This document shows positions 44,156 to 51,549 of a DNA stretch of 64,000 bases, one piece after another. A program made the translations under genes and the position numbers. The notes beneath the pieces are model-generated. The model was given only the letters and a program-made list of their open reading frames with translations. It ran no database searches and had not been told where the DNA came from. Within the stretch, counting starts at the first letter, position 1; each line of letters starts with the position of its first letter. Where the stretch lies: positions 1 to 64,000 of the forward strand of contig NZ_SMKW01000043.1 of the NCBI RefSeq assembly GCF_004348985.1. The letters are read 5' to 3'. This DNA comes from Saccharopolyspora elongata (lineage in GTDB: Bacteria > Actinomycetota > Actinomycetes > Mycobacteriales > Pseudonocardiaceae).

Positions 44156-44989
44156 CTAGATCATGCGCTTGCCGCCGCCGGCGTAGATGGTCTGGCCGGT
44201 GACCCAGCGGGCTTGGTGGGAGGCGAGGAAGACCGCGAGGTCGGCGATGTCGTCGGGGCGGCCGACGCGGCCCAGCGGGCTGAACTCGGCGAAGCGGGTG
44301 TTCATGTCGTCGCTGATCCAGCCGGTCTGCACCGGGCCCGGCGAGATGATGTTGACGGTGATGCCGGCGGCGCCGAGTTCGATGGCCGCGGAGCGGCTCA
44401 GCGATTCCAGCGCGTTCTTGGTCGCCCAGTAGGAGATCTGGTCGGCCGCGCCGGGAGCGGCGTCGGTGGAGATGTTGATGATGCGGCCCCAGTCGGCTTT
44501 GCGGCGCCGGTGGCGGCGGTGGAATTCGGCCATCAGCAGCGCGGGTGCGCGTGTGTTGACGGCGTGGTGGGCGTCCAGGCTCGCCGCGGCGACGGTGCTG
44601 GCGCCGCGCGCGGGGTCGGTCCGGAAGGTGTCGGGCACGCAGTGCGCGGCGTTGTTGATGAGGATCTCCACCGGCCCGAAGTGGGTTTCGGCGTGGTCGA
44701 AGATCGCCGGGACGACGGCGGGGTCGGCGAGGTCGACGGCCAGCGATTCGGCGTCGGCGCCGTCGGCGCGCAGGGCATCGCGCACGTGATCGGTGTCGGT
44801 GGCCTTCGCCGTGCCGTAGGTGCGGTCGGCGCCGGTGCTGTCGCGGGTCGGGGGTGTTTCGGGCAGGGAGGCGAGCACGACTTTGACGCCCTGGCGGGCC
44901 AGGGCGCGGGCGATGCCGGCGCCGATGCCCAGCGGGCTGTTGGCGCCGGTGATCACGGCAACGCGGTCGCGCAGGCGGGGGTCGATCAC
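44156..44989 (-). CDS. SDR family oxidoreductase
   Basis: 277 residues from GTG 44989. Cofactor motif GANSPLGIGAGIARAL is a variant of T-G-x-x-x-G-x-G; NNAAH, RIINISTDAAPG (Ser replaced by Thr at the catalytic place, Ser just before), Y-W-A-T-K and SPGPVQTGWISDDM follow. It overlaps the hydrolase gene upstream by four bases (GTGA), so it is the last gene of the ABC-F operon. Possibly modifies a drug or its ester product (inference). Confidence 0.85.
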   Translation of the reverse strand: MIDPRLRDRVAVITGANSPLGIGAGIARALARQGVKVVLASLPETPPTRDSTGADRTYGTAKATDTDHVRDALRADGADAESLAVDLADPAVVPAIFDHAETHFGPVEILINNAAHCVPDTFRTDPARGASTVAAASLDAHHAVNTRAPALLMAEFHRRHRRRKADWGRIINISTDAAPGAADQISYWATKNALESLSRSAAIELGAAGITVNIISPGPVQTGWISDDMNTRFAEFSPLGRVGRPDDIADLAVFLASHQARWVTGQTIYAGGGKRMI

Positions 44990-45882
44990 GCGGTGGTCCT
45001 CTCGAAGTGTCCGATGTGGTCGGTGATGGTGGTGGTGATCTGGCGGTGCAGCACGCCGGGCAGGGCGTGGCCGAGCCCGGGGATGGTCGCGCAGCGGGCG
45101 CCGGGGATGAGGTCGGCGAGGTGCCGGCCGTGCGGGGGCGGGTTGACGGGGTCCTGCGGGCCCTGGATGACCAGGGTCGGCGTGGTGACGTGGCGCAGTT
45201 CGGCGCCGCGTTCGGTGTGTACCGGGGTGGCGAAGGCGTGCGCGGCCGGTTGCCGGTAGCTGCCGGCGTGGTCGATCGCGGCGTTCTCCCAGCGGCGGAA
45301 TTCCGCGGCGTCGAAGGGGATTTCGTCGCCTGCGAGCAGTCGCCACTCGTCGATCCGGCGTTGCAGCGCGGTGGCGCGGTCGGGTGCGGGGTCGGCGCGG
45401 TGGGCCATCACGGTGACCACCCGCGGGGTGGGTGTGGGCAGGTCGGTGGGTTCGCCTTCGACGGCGCGGCGCATCGAGTCGGCGAAGTCGACGTCGAGGG
45501 CGGCGGTCAGCATCAGGGTGAGGGTGCGTAGCCGGTCGCGGTGGTCCAGCGCGAGCAGCTGGCCGAGGGTGCCGCCCATGGACAGGCCGACGACGTGGGC
45601 GGTGGCGATGCCGTGGCCGTCGAGGACCGCCACGGCATCGCGGGCGAGGTCGGTCAAGGCGTAATCGGTGATGTCCAGGTGCGTGGAGCGGCCGGTGTCG
45701 CGGTGGTCGTAGCGCACGACGTGCAGGCGGTGCGCTACGAGGGCGTCGACGAACTCGTCGGGCCAGCCCAGCGCGTTGGTGTTGGCGCCCATGATCAGCA
45801 GAACCGGCGGGTCCGCCGGGTCGCCACGGGATTCGCTCCACAGCAGCAGGCCGTCGGGGGTGGTGATGTGGCGTTCAGTCAT
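44986..45882 (-). CDS. Alpha/beta hydrolase (RdmC/methylesterase-like)
   Basis: 298 residues: PPVLLIMGANTNALGWPDEF (oxyanion region), YDHRDTGRST, VVGLSMGGTLGQLLAL with nucleophile Ser near 100, LVIQGPQDPVNPP with the Asp, and GLGHALP with the catalytic His. Resembles RdmC-type esterases of polyketide pathways. Its start overlaps the acetyltransferase end by eight bases, and its stop overlaps the SDR start: tight coupling in the operon. Confidence 0.88.
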   Translation of the reverse strand: MTERHITTPDGLLLWSESRGDPADPPVLLIMGANTNALGWPDEFVDALVAHRLHVVRYDHRDTGRSTHLDITDYALTDLARDAVAVLDGHGIATAHVVGLSMGGTLGQLLALDHRDRLRTLTLMLTAALDVDFADSMRRAVEGEPTDLPTPTPRVVTVMAHRADPAPDRATALQRRIDEWRLLAGDEIPFDAAEFRRWENAAIDHAGSYRQPAAHAFATPVHTERGAELRHVTTPTLVIQGPQDPVNPPPHGRHLADLIPGARCATIPGLGHALPGVLHRQITTTITDHIGHFERTTA

Positions 45883-46540
45883 CGAGCAGCCCTTCCCGGC
45901 GGGCCAGGGCTGCGAGCTCTTTGGGGTCGCCGCCCATGATGGTCCGCACGTGGGTGGTGATGGTCTGGACGGGCCAGTTCCACCAGGCGATGCGCTGGAG
46001 CAGCTCGACGTCGTCGTCGTAGAAGCGGCGGCGGATCACCTGAGCCGGGTTGCCGCCGGCGATGCCGTAGGCGGGGATGTCGCCGGTGACCACCGCGCCG
46101 GTGGCGATGATCGCGCCGTCGCCGATGCGCACGCCGGGCATGATGGTGGCGTCGCGGCCGATCCAGACGTCGTTGCCGACGATGGTGTCGCCCTTGGCGG
46201 GCAGGCTGGTGGCGAGGTCGAGGGTGGCCTGGGCCCAGTCGCCGCCGAACATGGTGAACGGGTAGGTGGAGCAGCCGATCATGGGGTGGTTGGCGGCGGG
46301 CATGATGAACCGCGCTCCGGTGGCCAGCGCGCAGAACCGGCCGATGCGAAGCCGCGCGGGTCCGTAGTTGTAGAGCACGTTGCGGGTTTCGAATTCGGCC
46401 GCGCCTGCGGGGTCGTCGTAGTAGGTGTACTCGCCGATCTCGATCAGCGGGGAGCTGACCACTGTGGACAGGAAAGCCACGTTGGTCAGCTCGGGCCGGG
46501 TGCTGGGATGCACCCGGGTGGGGTCGGGCGTGTTGGGCAT
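45875..46540 (-). CDS. Hexapeptide-repeat acetyltransferase (CatB/Vat family)
   Basis: 221 residues from ATG 46540. The sequence IEIGEYTYYDDPAGAAEFETRNVLYNYGPARLRIGRFCALATGARFIMPAANH, NHPMIGCSTYPFTMFGGDW with the catalytic His of xenobiotic acetyltransferases, and IVGNDVWIGRDATIMPGVRIGDGAIIATGAVVTGDIPAYGIAGGNPAQVIRRRF match Vat (streptogramin A) and CatB (chloramphenicol) enzymes. A left-handed beta-helix trimer is expected. It sits directly after the ABC-F gene, overlapping its end by 55 bases, which strengthens a ribosome-drug resistance role (inference). Confidence 0.88.
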   Translation of the reverse strand: MPNTPDPTRVHPSTRPELTNVAFLSTVVSSPLIEIGEYTYYDDPAGAAEFETRNVLYNYGPARLRIGRFCALATGARFIMPAANHPMIGCSTYPFTMFGGDWAQATLDLATSLPAKGDTIVGNDVWIGRDATIMPGVRIGDGAIIATGAVVTGDIPAYGIAGGNPAQVIRRRFYDDDVELLQRIAWWNWPVQTITTHVRTIMGGDPKELAALARREGLLDD

Positions 46541-48180
46541 GGTGGCGACTCCCCTCCGGCGCTTCGGCCGTCGTGCAGGTTCAGGGTGGGCCCGTTCCAG
46601 CGTCGCCGCAGCCATCGGTCGTGGCTGGCGACGACGATGGCGCCGGGCGCGGTGTGCAGGGCGTCTTCGAGTTCGCCGACGAGGGTCAGCGACAGGTGGT
46701 TGGTGGGTTCGTCCAGCAACAACACCTGTGGTGGATCGGCGAGCAGCAGGGCCAGGGCCAGGCGGCGGCGCTGGCCGACCGAGAGAACGCCGACGGGGCG
46801 GTCGAGGTCGGCCGGGGCGAGCAGGCCCAGGTCGCGCAGGTCGGGCCGGTCGTCCCGGTGGGGCGTGGCGTAGATCTGCCGGGGGCTCTTGCGGGGTTCG
46901 GCGAAGGTGACGTCCTGTTCGAGCAGGCCGATGCTGACGTCGTGGCGGCGCTGCACGCTGCCGGTGTCGGGTGCCAGCCGGCCGGCGGCCAGCTGCAGCA
47001 GGGTGGACTTGCCCGCGCCGTTGCCGCCGGTGATCAGCAGCCGGTCGGTGCCGGTGACGTCGAGTTCGTCGATCCACACCCGCCCGCGCACGCCTGCTTC
47101 CCGGATCTGCAGCACCACATCGGTGGTGGTTTCGCGGCCGGTGAGCGGCGTGGCGAAGCGCAGCGGGCTCGGCGGTTCGCGGACTTGGGCGGCGGTGAGG
47201 TCGTCGAGGCGCTGCTGGGCGTTGCGCACCCGGCGGGAGATCTGCTTCTGGACCCGGCCGCCGGAGTAGTCGTAGGCCATCTTGGCGTTGTCGCGCCGCA
47301 TGCCGTGGTGGCTGACCTGGCGGGCGGTGACGTCCACGGCGTGACGCAGGGCGGCGAGTTCGTTCTGCTCGGCGGTGTAGCGCTGTTCCCAGCGGGCGCG
47401 TTCGGCGCGTTTGGCGGCGAGGTAGTCGGTGAAGGTGCCGCCGTAGCGGGTGGGACCGTCCACGGCGGGGTCGAGGTCGAGGATGTCGGTGCAGACCGCG
47501 TCGAGGAACACGCGGTCGTGGCTGGCCAGCACGACGGCGCCGGGCAGCGCGGTGAGGTGCTGCTGCAGGAACGTCAGGGCGGATTCGTCGAGGTGATTGG
47601 TGGGTTCGTCCAGCAGCAGCGCGCGTGGCCTGCGCAGCAGCAGGACGGCCAGGCCCAGCCTGCTGCGCTGGCCGCCGGAGAGCGTGCCGATGCGCCGGTC
47701 GCCGGTGATGCCGCCCAGGCCGAGCCCGTCGAGGACGACTTCGGCGCGGTGGTCGGCGTTCCAGGTGTCGTGCTGCTGGGCCCAGTCGAGGACTTCGCCG
47801 TAGGCGGCGAGGATCCCGGGGTCCTCGGGTGCCTCGCCGAGGGCGTCGGCGAGTTCGGTCAGGCGGGCTTGCGCGGCGCGGTGGTCGGCCAGCGCCTCGT
47901 CCAGTGCGGCCGCCAGCGTCGTGTCGGGGGTGAAAGGTGGTTCCTGGTGCAGGAATCCGAGGTCGTCGGGGCGGGTGAGTTCGCCGCTGTCGGGATCTTC
48001 CGCGCCGACGAGGATGCGCAGCAGGGTGGACTTGCCGGCGCCGTTCTCGCCGACCAAGCCGATGCGCTGGCCGGGCGAGGCGGTCAGCGACACCCCGGCG
48101 AGGACGGTTCGGTCCGCATAGGACTTGACGAGATCACGCGCGCGCAGGACGAAGGACGAAGCGGCAGAAGAATTGGGCAC
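46486..48180 (-). CDS. ABC-F family ATPase, antibiotic-resistance type
   Basis: About 564 residues with two ABC domains and no membrane part. Walker A GENGAGKST and GGNGAGKST; signatures LSGGQRSRLG and LSVGQRRRLA; Walker B LLLDEPTNHLD and LLLDEPTNHLS. The inter-domain linker (about 250-340) is long, as in ARE ABC-F proteins that dislodge macrolide, lincosamide or pleuromutilin-type drugs from the ribosome. GTG 48180 is used because homology starts there; GTGs at 48195 and 48228 are in frame and none has a good ribosome site, which itself suggests translational control. First gene of a four-gene operon. Confidence 0.88.
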   Translation of the reverse strand: MPNSSAASSFVLRARDLVKSYADRTVLAGVSLTASPGQRIGLVGENGAGKSTLLRILVGAEDPDSGELTRPDDLGFLHQEPPFTPDTTLAAALDEALADHRAAQARLTELADALGEAPEDPGILAAYGEVLDWAQQHDTWNADHRAEVVLDGLGLGGITGDRRIGTLSGGQRSRLGLAVLLLRRPRALLLDEPTNHLDESALTFLQQHLTALPGAVVLASHDRVFLDAVCTDILDLDPAVDGPTRYGGTFTDYLAAKRAERARWEQRYTAEQNELAALRHAVDVTARQVSHHGMRRDNAKMAYDYSGGRVQKQISRRVRNAQQRLDDLTAAQVREPPSPLRFATPLTGRETTTDVVLQIREAGVRGRVWIDELDVTGTDRLLITGGNGAGKSTLLQLAAGRLAPDTGSVQRRHDVSIGLLEQDVTFAEPRKSPRQIYATPHRDDRPDLRDLGLLAPADLDRPVGVLSVGQRRRLALALLLADPPQVLLLDEPTNHLSLTLVGELEDALHTAPGAIVVASHDRWLRRRWNGPTLNLHDGRSAGGESPPCPTRPTPPGCIPAPGPS

Positions 48181-48284
48181 TGGGGAGTCACACACCGGAG
48201 GACTCGATGGCAATTGCCCGCCGGGCACGACGTGAACCGGTGAGAGGGGTTCGCGGAAGCCTCGGACGCGGGCCTAGCTCGAAG

Positions 48285-48853: not shown

Positions 48854-49594
48854 ATGCTGCAGGAGAACCACACCGACGACACCGCGGTGCTGTCGGACGG
48901 CACCACGACGGTGTCCTACGCCCCGAGCGCGATGCCGCGCACCGCGCGGGTGCTGTCCATCGACGGGCCCGGTGCGCTGGAACTGTTCCGCGCGGAGCTG
49001 CCGGGGTGGAAGCTGTCGGTCACTCCGCCTCACGGCGAGGCGCTGCTGCGCGCCGGGGCGCGACTGAAGCGGCATGCGCATGCGATGCGACGCGATCTGC
49101 GAGCCGATCCGCCGCCGCCGGAGTGGGCGGAGCTGACTCCGGCAGAGCCGCTGCGGGTGGTGGCCTGCGACCGCCCAGCGTCGGAGTTGCTACCGGCGTG
49201 GCGGGAGGCGTTCCCTCCGGAACATCCCGACCGGGGCTCCGGCGACGACCAGCAGGTGCTGGTGGAACTGCTGCAGCCGCTGCTGGCCGGCCGGGTGCTG
49301 GGGCCCGTGCTGGGGTGCAGCGCGCTGGTGGTCGACGCCGGCGACCGGGTCGCGGCGGGCCTGGTGATCAACGATCACGACGGCGTCCCATGGGTGGGCG
49401 ATGTGTTCCGCCGCCCGGCAGCGGAATTCGCCGGCCTGGGCGGCCTGCTGCTGCGGCGAGCCATGGCGTGGTTGAACGCGCAGGGCTGGCATGAGGTGGG
49501 TTTGGCCGTCACGGTCGGCAATCCGGCGCAGCACGTGTACGAGCGGCTCGGGTTCGCCATCACAACCACGACGATGACCATGGAAATCCCGTGA
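48854..49594 (+). CDS. GNAT family acetyltransferase
   Basis: 246 residues in two parts. The N-terminal half (to about 120) is a poorly conserved GNAT-like lobe; the C-terminal half holds ALVVDAGDRVAAGLVINDHDG, WVGDVFRRPAAEFAGLGGLLLRRAMAWLNAQGW (acetyl-CoA loop) and GLAVTVGNPAQHVYERLGF. Transcribed before the trpS leader on the same strand. Substrate unknown. Confidence 0.85.
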   Translation: MLQENHTDDTAVLSDGTTTVSYAPSAMPRTARVLSIDGPGALELFRAELPGWKLSVTPPHGEALLRAGARLKRHAHAMRRDLRADPPPPEWAELTPAEPLRVVACDRPASELLPAWREAFPPEHPDRGSGDDQQVLVELLQPLLAGRVLGPVLGCSALVVDAGDRVAAGLVINDHDGVPWVGDVFRRPAAEFAGLGGLLLRRAMAWLNAQGWHEVGLAVTVGNPAQHVYERLGFAITTTTMTMEIP

Positions 49595-49661
49595 CCACAT
49601 CCGGCCGCCGCCACAGGGATGGTTTCGGTCATACCGCAGGCAGTGCGCGACCGGAGCGGGT

Positions 49662-49673
49662 TAGGATGGCGGC
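49662..49673 (+). promoter_or_regulatory. -10 element of the trpS leader transcript
   Basis: TAGGAT at 49662-49667 is seven bases from the leader GTG, so the leader peptide is probably translated from a leaderless mRNA. No clear -35. Confidence 0.45.
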
Positions 49674-49715
49674 GTGATTCGCAGTTCGTGCTTCGCGTGG
49701 TGGCGCTCCGGTTAG
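49674..49715 (+). CDS. trpS leader peptide with tandem Trp codons
   Basis: GTG start at 49674 gives the 13-residue peptide M-I-R-S-S-C-F-A-W-W-R-S-G and TAG at 49713-49715. The two TGG codons (49698-49703) sit directly before strand 1 of the attenuator hairpins. The peptide itself has no other role; it senses the level of charged tRNA-Trp through ribosome stalling. Confidence 0.88.
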   Translation: MIRSSCFAWWRSG

Positions 49716-49769
49716 GAGCGGCCATCTCAGCACGCACGTCTCGGGCCGTTCGGATGGACGGCCCTTTTT
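49704..49769 (+). promoter_or_regulatory. Ribosome-mediated transcription attenuator of trpS
   Basis: Three mutually exclusive hairpins: 1:2 is CGCTCC (49704-49709) with GGAGCG (49715-49720); 2:3 is 49716-49723 with 49744-49751, eight pairs with one G-U; 3:4 is GGGCCGT (49743-49749) with ACGGCCC (49758-49764), followed by five T (49765-49769), an intrinsic terminator. A ribosome stalled at the Trp codons hides strand 1, lets 2:3 form and allows read-through. Confidence 0.88.
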
Positions 49770-49830
49770 CGTGTTCTCCACGCGTCCCGGGCCCCCGGCC
49801 GGACCCCGCCACCAGACCGAGGAGAACACC

Positions 49831-50883
49831 ATGACCACCGTGATCGAGACCTCCACCGCCGCGCGCCGCAGCGCCGAGCTGGAGGAGCAGATCGCCTTGC
49901 GCCCCAACGACTTCCGGGTGCTCACCGGCGACCGCCCGACCGGGCTGCTGCACCTGGGCCACTACTTCGGCACCCTGCACAACCGCGTCCGGTTGCAGCG
50001 CCAGGGCGTGGAGATGATGGTGATCATCGCCGACTACCAGGTGCTCACCGACCGCGACCTCGCCGAACACCTCGGCGAGCACGTCGACGACCTGGTGCTG
50101 GACTACCTGGCCGCCGGGATCGACCCGCAGACCGCCACGATCTTCACCCACAGCGCGGTCGCTGCGCTCAACCAGCTGCTCCTGCCGTTCCTGAGCCTGG
50201 TGTCGGTCTCGGAGCTCAGCCGCAACCCCACGGTCAAGGACGAGATCAACCACTCGCGGCAGGCGGCCGTCAGCGGCCTGATGTTCACCTACCCCGCGCA
50301 CCAGGCCGCCGACATCCTGTTCTGCAAGGCCAACCTGGTGCCGGTGGGCCAGGACCAGCTGCCGCACCTGGAGCTGACCCGCACGATCGCGCGCCGCTTC
50401 AACGACCGCTACGGGCGGCTGCTGCCCGAGCCGGACGCACTGCTGTCGCCGGCGCCGCTGCTGCTGGGCACCGACGGCACCAAGATGAGCAAGAGCCGCG
50501 GCAACGCGATCACGCTGTCGGCCACCGCCGACGAGACCGCGCGGCTGATCCGCGGCGCGAAGACCGACGCGCAGCGCCACATCACCTACGACCCGCAGTC
50601 GCGCCCGGAGGTCTCCAGCCTGGTGCTGCTCGCGGCCCTGTGCCTGGGGCGCGATCCGCACGACGTCGCCGCGGACATCGGTCCGGGTGGCGCGGCGGCG
50701 CTGAAGCGCACCGTCACCGAGGCCGTCAACGAGCACCTGGCGCCGATGCGGGAACGCCGCACCGCCTTCGCGCAGGACCGCGGCTATCTGCGCCGGATCC
50801 TGCGCGAAGGCAACGAGCGCGCCAACGCCATCGCCGAGGCGACCCTCGCCGAGGTGCGCTCAGCGATGGGCACCCGCTACTGA
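49831..50883 (+). CDS. trpS: Tryptophanyl-tRNA synthetase
   Basis: 350 residues, class Ic. GDRPTGLLHLGHYFGTLHN carries the HIGH-type motif (H-L-G-H) and GTDGTKMSKSRGNAI the KMSKS motif; VKDEINHSRQAAVSGLMFTYPAHQAADILFCKANLVPVGQDQLPHLELTRTIARRFN is the tryptophan/adenylate pocket. ATG 49831 has GAGGAG upstream and follows the attenuator by 60 bases. In Streptomyces an attenuation-controlled second TrpRS confers indolmycin resistance; whether this is the only or an auxiliary copy cannot be told from the window. Confidence 0.95.
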   Translation: MTTVIETSTAARRSAELEEQIALRPNDFRVLTGDRPTGLLHLGHYFGTLHNRVRLQRQGVEMMVIIADYQVLTDRDLAEHLGEHVDDLVLDYLAAGIDPQTATIFTHSAVAALNQLLLPFLSLVSVSELSRNPTVKDEINHSRQAAVSGLMFTYPAHQAADILFCKANLVPVGQDQLPHLELTRTIARRFNDRYGRLLPEPDALLSPAPLLLGTDGTKMSKSRGNAITLSATADETARLIRGAKTDAQRHITYDPQSRPEVSSLVLLAALCLGRDPHDVAADIGPGGAAALKRTVTEAVNEHLAPMRERRTAFAQDRGYLRRILREGNERANAIAEATLAEVRSAMGTRY

Positions 50884-51549
50884 ACGGGTCAGCAGCCCGT
50901 CGCGCATCACGGCCACCTCGTCGACCTGGTCGAGGTACTCGGTGTCGTGGGTGACCATCACGGTGGCGACCTGGTGCTGGCGGGTGACCTCGGCGAGCAG
51001 CTCGACGATCTGTCCGCCGCGCTCCTGGTCGAGCGCGGCGGTCGGCTCGTCCACCAGCAGCACCGCGGGCCTGCCGGTGAGGGCGCGGGCGATGTTGACC
51101 CGCTGGCGCTCACCACCGGATAGCTGGTGCGGCCGCCGGTGCTGCTTGCCATCCAGCCCGACCGCGGCCAGCGCTTCGGCGGCCGCACGGCGCTGCCGCC
51201 GCACCGAACCGCCCCGCATGTGCTCGACGGCGAGCAGCTGTTCGGCGGCGGTCAGCGAACCGAGCAGGTTGGGCTGCTGGAAGACGATGCCGATCTTCTC
51301 CAGCCGTAGCCGGGCCCGCCGGGCGGCGGAAAGCCCACCGGCGTCGACGCCGTCGACGACCACTCGGCCGGAATCGGGGCGCAGCAGGGTCGCGGCCACG
51401 GCCAGCAGGCTCGACTTGCCGGACCCGGAGGGGCCGACGACGGCCAGCATCCGGCCGGGCCCGACCCGCAGCGACACCTCGTCGAGGGCGGTGAGGACGC
51501 GGTCGCCGTCGGGGTAGGTCAGGCGGACATCGGTCAGGGTGAGGCTCAT
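50860..51549 (-). CDS. ABC transporter ATPase, MacB/LolD type
   Basis: 229 residues: Walker A GPSGSGKSS (about 39-47), Q-loop QQPNLLGS, signature LSGGERQRV, Walker B VLLVDEPTAALD, switch His in VTHD. The family energises MacB/FtsX-type permeases. It overlaps its permease gene by four bases (ATGA), and its 3' end overlaps the convergent trpS by 24 bases. Confidence 0.92.
   Translation of the reverse strand: MSLTLTDVRLTYPDGDRVLTALDEVSLRVGPGRMLAVVGPSGSGKSSLLAVAATLLRPDSGRVVVDGVDAGGLSAARRARLRLEKIGIVFQQPNLLGSLTAAEQLLAVEHMRGGSVRRQRRAAAEALAAVGLDGKQHRRPHQLSGGERQRVNIARALTGRPAVLLVDEPTAALDQERGGQIVELLAEVTRQHQVATVMVTHDTEYLDQVDEVAVMRDGLLTRSVAGAHR

Follow-up and report, generated by a model that had tools for sequence, protein, structure and literature searches.

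A candidate ribosome-mediated tryptophan attenuator ahead of an auxiliary, probably indolmycin-insensitive tryptophanyl-tRNA synthetase gene in Saccharopolyspora elongata

A short open reading frame with two adjacent tryptophan codons lies ahead of a tryptophanyl-tRNA synthetase (TrpRS) gene, trpS, in Saccharopolyspora elongata and raises the question of whether synthesis of this enzyme is governed by attenuation and, if so, what an enzyme under such control would be for. The window analysed here is a stretch of 64,000 nucleotides (64 kb) on contig C195 of a genome (G000) of 10.3 Mb in 277 contigs. An earlier note on this DNA had described a complete Trp attenuator in front of trpS, and all of its parts were located in the sequence where the note had placed them (49662-49769; Table 1): the leader, three competing hairpins and the terminator are all present ahead of an auxiliary trpS. 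Codons 9 and 10 of the leader are TGG TGG (49698-49703) and lie directly against strand 1 (49704-49709), which bears out the geometry that the note had proposed. The positions that it gave for strands 1 to 4 were also right, although the stem formed by strands 3 and 4 has two pairs more than it had listed. When both strands of the window were searched with a detector for Trp-Trp leaders (a TANNNT hexamer followed after 5-8 nt by a start codon that opens an ORF of 8-30 codons containing Trp-Trp) the region 49662-49715 was the single site recovered. The product of trpS exceeds the cut-off of the NCBIfam model TIGR00233 trpS and GAGGAGA precedes the ATG of the gene (49831).

Table 1. Coordinates of the features discussed (window positions unless a contig of genome G000 is given)
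Feature	Position	Strand	Details
-10-like hexamer TAGGAT	49662..49667	+	ends 6 nt 5' of leader GTG; no -35 match
Leader ORF VIRSSCFAWWRSG	49674..49715	+	13 codons; GTG start 49674; TAG stop 49713-49715
Lower stem beneath hairpin 1:2	49687..49734	+	49687-49692 (leader codons 5-7) with 49729-49734; 6 pairs
Hairpin 1:2	49704..49720	+	49704-49709 with 49715-49720; extension 49699-49703 with 49722-49726
Antiterminator 2:3	49716..49751	+	49716-49723 with 49744-49751
Intrinsic terminator 3:4 and T5	49743..49769	+	49743-49751 with 49756-49764, 9 pairs; TTTTT 49765-49769
Auxiliary tryptophanyl-tRNA synthetase gene trpS	49831..50883	+	350 aa; Arg9/Gln43 type
Macrolide esterase-like gene	44986-45882	minus	below NCBIfam cut-off
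Vat streptogramin acetyltransferase-like gene	45875-46540	minus	below NCBIfam cut-off
ABC-F ribosomal protection protein-like gene	46486-48228	minus	below NCBIfam cut-off
Second auxiliary trpS leader VRAMSNMWWAVRGRPSIVVH	contig C251, 70282-70220	minus	Trp-Trp leader; trpS start 70132
Nitric oxide synthase genes	contig C88, 25167-26231; contig C188, 84436-85341		

The pairings 1:2, 2:3 and 3:4 are mutually exclusive. RNA folding, which had been suggested as a check on the structure, supports it: the RNA of 49674-49772 folds at -46.9 kcal/mol against a mean of -36.3 kcal/mol for shuffled sequences (z -3.1) and 2 of 200 shuffles fold as well. Helix energies were -11.6 kcal/mol for hairpin 1:2 (-18.1 kcal/mol when its extension into the arm of the Trp codons is included), -13.7 kcal/mol for the antiterminator 2:3 and -17.8 kcal/mol for the terminator 3:4, the last being the sole terminator detected in a consensus scan of both strands of 49400-51100 (0.4 expected in shuffles). 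RNA that extends from just 5' of strand 2 to a point inside the loop of 3:4 folds as 2:3 (-14.5), the full-length RNA adopts the terminator fold, and when strand 2 is covered the terminator alone remains. The terminator beats the antiterminator at equilibrium even with strand 1 removed, and antitermination must therefore be decided during transcription, while strand 4 is made. Classical attenuation is likewise decided at this point.

No sigma-70 promoter was found by a scan of 49400-51100 on both strands. The presence of the TAGGAT hexamer 6 nt before the GTG suggests that the mRNA may begin at the leader's own start codon. The 64 kb window contains no match to Rfam at gathering thresholds, T-box included, and the T-box and other Rfam families were rejected as explanations on this basis.

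Taken as a whole, the arrangement of these elements leaves little doubt that a ribosome-mediated trp attenuator precedes the auxiliary trpS. In the proposed mechanism transcription would start at or beside the leader GTG and ribosomes would load without a Shine-Dalgarno sequence. With Trp-tRNA plentiful the ribosome would reach the UAG and cover strand 2, with the result that 3:4 forms and transcription stops; without translation, hairpin 1:2 and the lower stem would form and termination would again be the outcome. Trp-tRNA could become scarce through a lack of Trp or because the housekeeping TrpRS is blocked by a drug like indolmycin. A ribosome stalled on TGG TGG would then cover strand 1, 2:3 would form ahead of the synthesis of strand 4, trpS would be read, and the enzyme, altered at pocket positions 9 and 43, would probably go on charging tRNA in the presence of the drug.

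Further evidence for this arrangement comes from related loci. Relatives of the window TrpRS in named genomes number 381, from which the best 80 were taken and all 80 examined; among these the nearest is that of Saccharopolyspora shandongensis, at 97%. The leader is present in 75 of the best 80 of 381, which argues that the attenuator is not there by chance, and 73 of the best 80 have both a Trp-Trp leader and the hairpins. In two leaders (L040 and L051) the first Trp codon has become CGG (Arg), leaving one Trp. The leader is missing from five of the best 80 of 381, namely L025, L046, L048 and L079, together with L021, where the loss is by truncation. In L021 (at about 2860-2940) and also in L148 the 5' part of the leader has been lost while strand 2 and the hairpin persist before trpS, and in L021 the DNA further upstream may include a transposase-like stretch. 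In 74 of the 75 leaders the start is preceded, at a distance of 6 or 7 nt, by a TANNNT hexamer, a count that is biased by the start codon having been chosen by means of the hexamer.

A uniform detector (TANNNT hexamer, start codon and 8-30 codons with Trp-Trp, within 400 nt upstream) was then applied to several sets of genes. It recovered leaders before 72 of the best 80 (of 381) named relatives of the window type, 17 of 17 loci from the genus, 7 of 8 in a sample of the class at 74% identity or above and 9 of 9 genes for other auxiliary types, including one from the same genome as the window (on contig C251), and before none of 21 housekeeping trpS genes. Random 400-nt segments gave 12 hits in 5000, segments with WWRS-containing matches having been left out in order to avoid counting the element itself. 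For relatives at 58-65% identity the figure was 15 of 21, these 21 being the relatives with a locus (9 further matches without a locus were left out), and three of the six misses (L164, L166 and L171) have Trp-Trp-Trp leaders by eye. Family f21 relatives within this range of identity carry leaders like VKSLVLVWWLPS in which the order of the hairpins is kept and there is no U-run. Leaders of the VKSLVLVWWLPS type and its variants were seen in f21 at L154-L158, L160-L163, L165, L168 and L169.

An alignment of 76 leaders (73 distinct sequences) allowed the helices to be assessed by covariation. The extended hairpin 1:2 pairs in 97.3% of alignment cells and shows two-sided changes at 6 pairs, and 2:3 pairs in 98.3% of cells across the 73 distinct sequences with 2 such pairs; 3:4 pairs in 99.4% of cells, with one both-sides change that occurs in one sequence. 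Slid controls pair in 24-59% (1:2), 18-70% (2:3) and 22-63% (3:4) of cells. The counts of pair types were reached by 81 of 500 shuffles for 1:2 and by 170 of 500 for 2:3, and the lone compensatory change of 3:4 was matched by 39 of 500. Covariation is thus clear for hairpins 1:2 and 2:3 and slight for 3:4. The lower stem, which brings the part of the leader near its conserved Cys codon together with the spacer that follows strand 2, pairs in 93.7% of alignment cells and 4 of its 5 pairs are changed on both sides. In the window itself this stem is equalled by 6.5% of shuffles of its own spacer, a figure that is weak when taken alone, and among single sequences 20 of 76 reach 5% in shuffles. Four or more T residues occur in the 8 nt after the terminator stem in 69 of the 76 aligned leaders; the other 7 have fewer, with at most two in L014, L017, L019, L052, L054 and L081.

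A covariance model built from the leader gave one strong site in the genome of the window. Across 296 genomes of the class, matches at E <= 0.001 were obtained in 22. Nine matches were strong (E below 1e-18, that of the window included) and each lies before a window-type trpS, one of which is degenerate (G161). Weaker matches with a Trp-Trp leader were found before other types of TrpRS gene (L098, L101 and L107), before anthranilate-synthase-like genes (L097 and L099) and before trpD (L100). L098 and L101 pass the trpS model and L100 passes that for trpD; the gene at L097 is below all its model cut-offs, and those at L099 and L107 were identified by likeness. Matches L102-L106 and L108-L112 have no Trp-Trp leader and were set aside. 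Within the genus Saccharopolyspora the leader model matches 20 of 22 genomes and the window-type enzyme is present in 19 of 22. All 19 genomes with the enzyme have a model match, which adjoins the gene in 18 and overlaps its start in G335, and the twentieth match (G332) is weak and without a trpS gene. By alignment, trpS is in pieces in G161 (contig C1, about 1998935-1999700; L093) and in two pieces in G335 (contig C1, 1206238-1207316), and in G161 the attenuator is intact despite the fragmented gene. No published description of the element in Saccharopolyspora was found in literature of which the subscription part was partially covered.

The nature of the enzyme was addressed with an alignment of 86 TrpRSs, including 22 of the best 80 (of 381) named relatives, using residue numbers transferred via the protein encoded on contig C128 of the same genome. 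Position 9, which we take to have a role in the binding pocket, and position 43 distinguish the types. All 52 window-type TrpRSs in the alignment have Arg9 and Gln43 and all 21 housekeeping TrpRSs have Gln9 and His43. The remaining sequences have Thr, Lys or Arg at position 9 and His at position 43, with the exception of TrpRS II of D. radiodurans. Asp132 and Gln147 are identical in all 86. Arg9 and Gln43 are also found in all of the best 80 (of 381) named relatives and in 17 of 17 relatives from the genus. Indolmycin is reported to contact His43, Asp132 and Gln147, and H43N to confer resistance, in the accessible portion of the source (PMC4899734). Since the indolmycin contact His43 is replaced by Gln and position 9 is Arg, resistance is plausible, and on these residues it seems likely that the window enzyme charges tRNA despite the drug.

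In a midpoint-rooted tree the window clade is separated from the housekeeping and other auxiliary types at 100/100; it comprises 53 rows, one of which is D. radiodurans TrpRS II on a long, unsure branch. The window TrpRS and the Lys9 type, which we take to be S. coelicolor TrpRS1, thus fall into separate clades at 100/100, with Arg9 in one and Lys9 in the other. The claim that this copy may be of the resistant type stands as plausible, but its clade differs from the Lys9 type. In two Streptomyces genomes (G307 and G306, with loci L025 and L048 respectively) the Lys9-type gene has a Trp-Trp leader, MTTRALTLDLRWWAA, and the window-type gene is without one.

A search of the genome for a second trpS, as had been suggested, yielded two further copies, making three matches in all: that of the window, one on contig C128 with housekeeping residues and one on contig C251. 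The C251 enzyme is of the Thr9/His43 type and its leader has TAACAT 6 nt before a GTG and GC-rich hairpins without a U-run, the distance from leader start to gene start being 150 nt. That this gene is unregulated might have been supposed from the covariance model being strong at the window alone, but this was rejected, as the upstream DNA has a leader of different sequence. No leader with Trp-Trp was seen upstream of the five trpE-family matches or of the best match to trpD in the genome, the gene start being only an estimate for three weaker matches. Upstream of the best trpE match there is an ORF with two separate Trp codons and no -10 hexamer. We tentatively raise the possibility, to which we give less than even weight, that in actinomycetes a Trp attenuator generally marks out auxiliary TrpRSs of several lineages that are insensitive to inhibitors, and not the housekeeping enzyme, and that Saccharopolyspora stacks two such switches, one with a strong terminator before the Arg9/Gln43 enzyme and one without a U-run before the Thr9/His43 enzyme. 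If this were true, both spare enzymes would respond to one and the same defect in charging, either at different thresholds or against different inhibitors of TrpRS, and resistant TrpRS genes could be sought by means of the leader.

Given a real attenuator, the enzyme could instead serve general limitation for Trp rather than drug resistance, with the residue changes being a matter of lineage history. The switch senses charging and not the drug, similar leaders occur in other genomes before anthranilate-synthase-like genes and trpD, and the C251 auxiliary TrpRS keeps His43 yet also has a Trp-Trp leader, all of which is in keeping with such a role. Set against this, positions 9 and 43 are fixed in all of the best 80 (of 381) named relatives, a search upstream of the trpE and trpD matches in the genome itself gave no Trp-Trp leader, and SGR_3809 of S. 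griseus, which is probably of the window type, is described as resistant in the accessible portion of the source (PMC6804068). We regard a role in general Trp limitation as rather unlikely, though it is the most credible of the alternatives.

Another function is suggested by D. radiodurans TrpRS II, which has been reported, in what is accessible of the source, to work with nitric oxide synthase (PMC9437257). This protein is the best match of the window TrpRS among solved structures and has the same Arg9 and Gln43; the window enzyme might accordingly partner a nitric oxide synthase, nitrating Trp or handling nitric oxide, with the attenuator merely linking it to charging. Two nitric oxide synthase genes are present in the genome and at least one in 7 of 10 genomes with a window-type trpS, but there is none in the other three (S. 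griseus BIG105, S. griseofuscus and SirexAA-E), neither gene of the present genome lies on the window contig, and a switch that responds to Trp starvation is ill-suited to a nitration role. Nitric oxide synthase was rejected as an obligate partner because of its absence from these 3 of 10 genomes, which also means that a role like that of TrpRS II, though conceivable, cannot hold throughout, and as an account of the window enzyme we consider it very improbable. The hairpin might also be a mere terminator of the GNAT-like gene that ends at 49594 on the same strand as trpS, with the Trp codons there by chance. Of the loci inspected, all 5 from named Saccharopolyspora have such a gene; in none of the 5 others was one found, yet leader and hairpins are kept there, and the detector and helix counts also speak against the idea, to which we attach almost no weight. 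The explanation that we favour, and hold to be very probable, is that a trp attenuator controls an auxiliary TrpRS that is likely to be insensitive to indolmycin.

Next to trpS, on the minus strand, lie the three genes of 44986-48228 listed in Table 1. Among 80 loci searched (best 80 of 381) an ABC-F gene lies near trpS in L004 and a Vat-like gene in L007. Upstream of the ABC-F gene of the window, at 48347-48285 on the minus strand, are GGAAATTCCC-TTGACA, the hexamer TAAGAT and an ORF of three codons, MKN. The combination resembles a promoter of the WhiB7/WblC kind accompanied by a small upstream ORF.

Expression of a spare synthetase, probably insensitive to the drug, in response to ribosome stalling is a form of control that has received little study, and these results would extend it to Saccharopolyspora and related families. 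Two enzyme lineages with the same control logic can now be told apart, and a sequence signature is provided by which auxiliary TrpRSs with possible resistance to drugs like indolmycin could be recognised.

Control of an auxiliary trpS by Trp attenuation has already been described and the window locus adds another example. The attenuator of S. coelicolor trpRS1 is said to have been characterised by Vecchione and Sello in 2010. S. coelicolor TrpRS1, if it is of the Lys9 type, belongs to a clade other than that of the window TrpRS. In the trpL2-trpS locus of S. lividans, trpL2 is reported to be leaderless and to have two hairpins (PMC8079986, accessible portion). Both of these loci resemble the window in having a short Trp-containing leader ORF before trpS. 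As far as the accessible portion of that source describes it, however, trpL2 (MMTRTCTQLWRAA) contains a single Trp and lacks a U-run, whereas the window leader has two Trp codons and is followed by T5. Trp attenuators have also been described for the trp operons of Corynebacterium and Streptomyces and for trpS2 of S. avermitilis (Seliverstov 2005, PMC1262725); in the accessible portion of that paper these share tandem Trp codons, competing hairpins and a GC-rich terminator with the window but concern other genes or species. At the level of the enzyme, D. radiodurans TrpRS II has Arg9 and Gln43 in common with the window TrpRS, with the placement in the tree described above. An indolmycin-resistant auxiliary TrpRS, SGR_3809 of S. 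griseus, was reportedly the subject of work by Vecchione and Sello in 2009. S. griseus NBRC 13350 is stated to have two TrpRSs, of which SGR_3809 is indolmycin-resistant (PMC6804068, accessible portion). The host of SGR_3809 is a Streptomyces, while the window enzyme is from Saccharopolyspora and its resistance is putative. S. griseus BIG105 likewise has two TrpRSs, a housekeeping enzyme and a window-type enzyme whose gene follows this attenuator, and since these are the only two types in BIG105, SGR_3809 is likely to be of the window type and thus probably belongs to the window clade.
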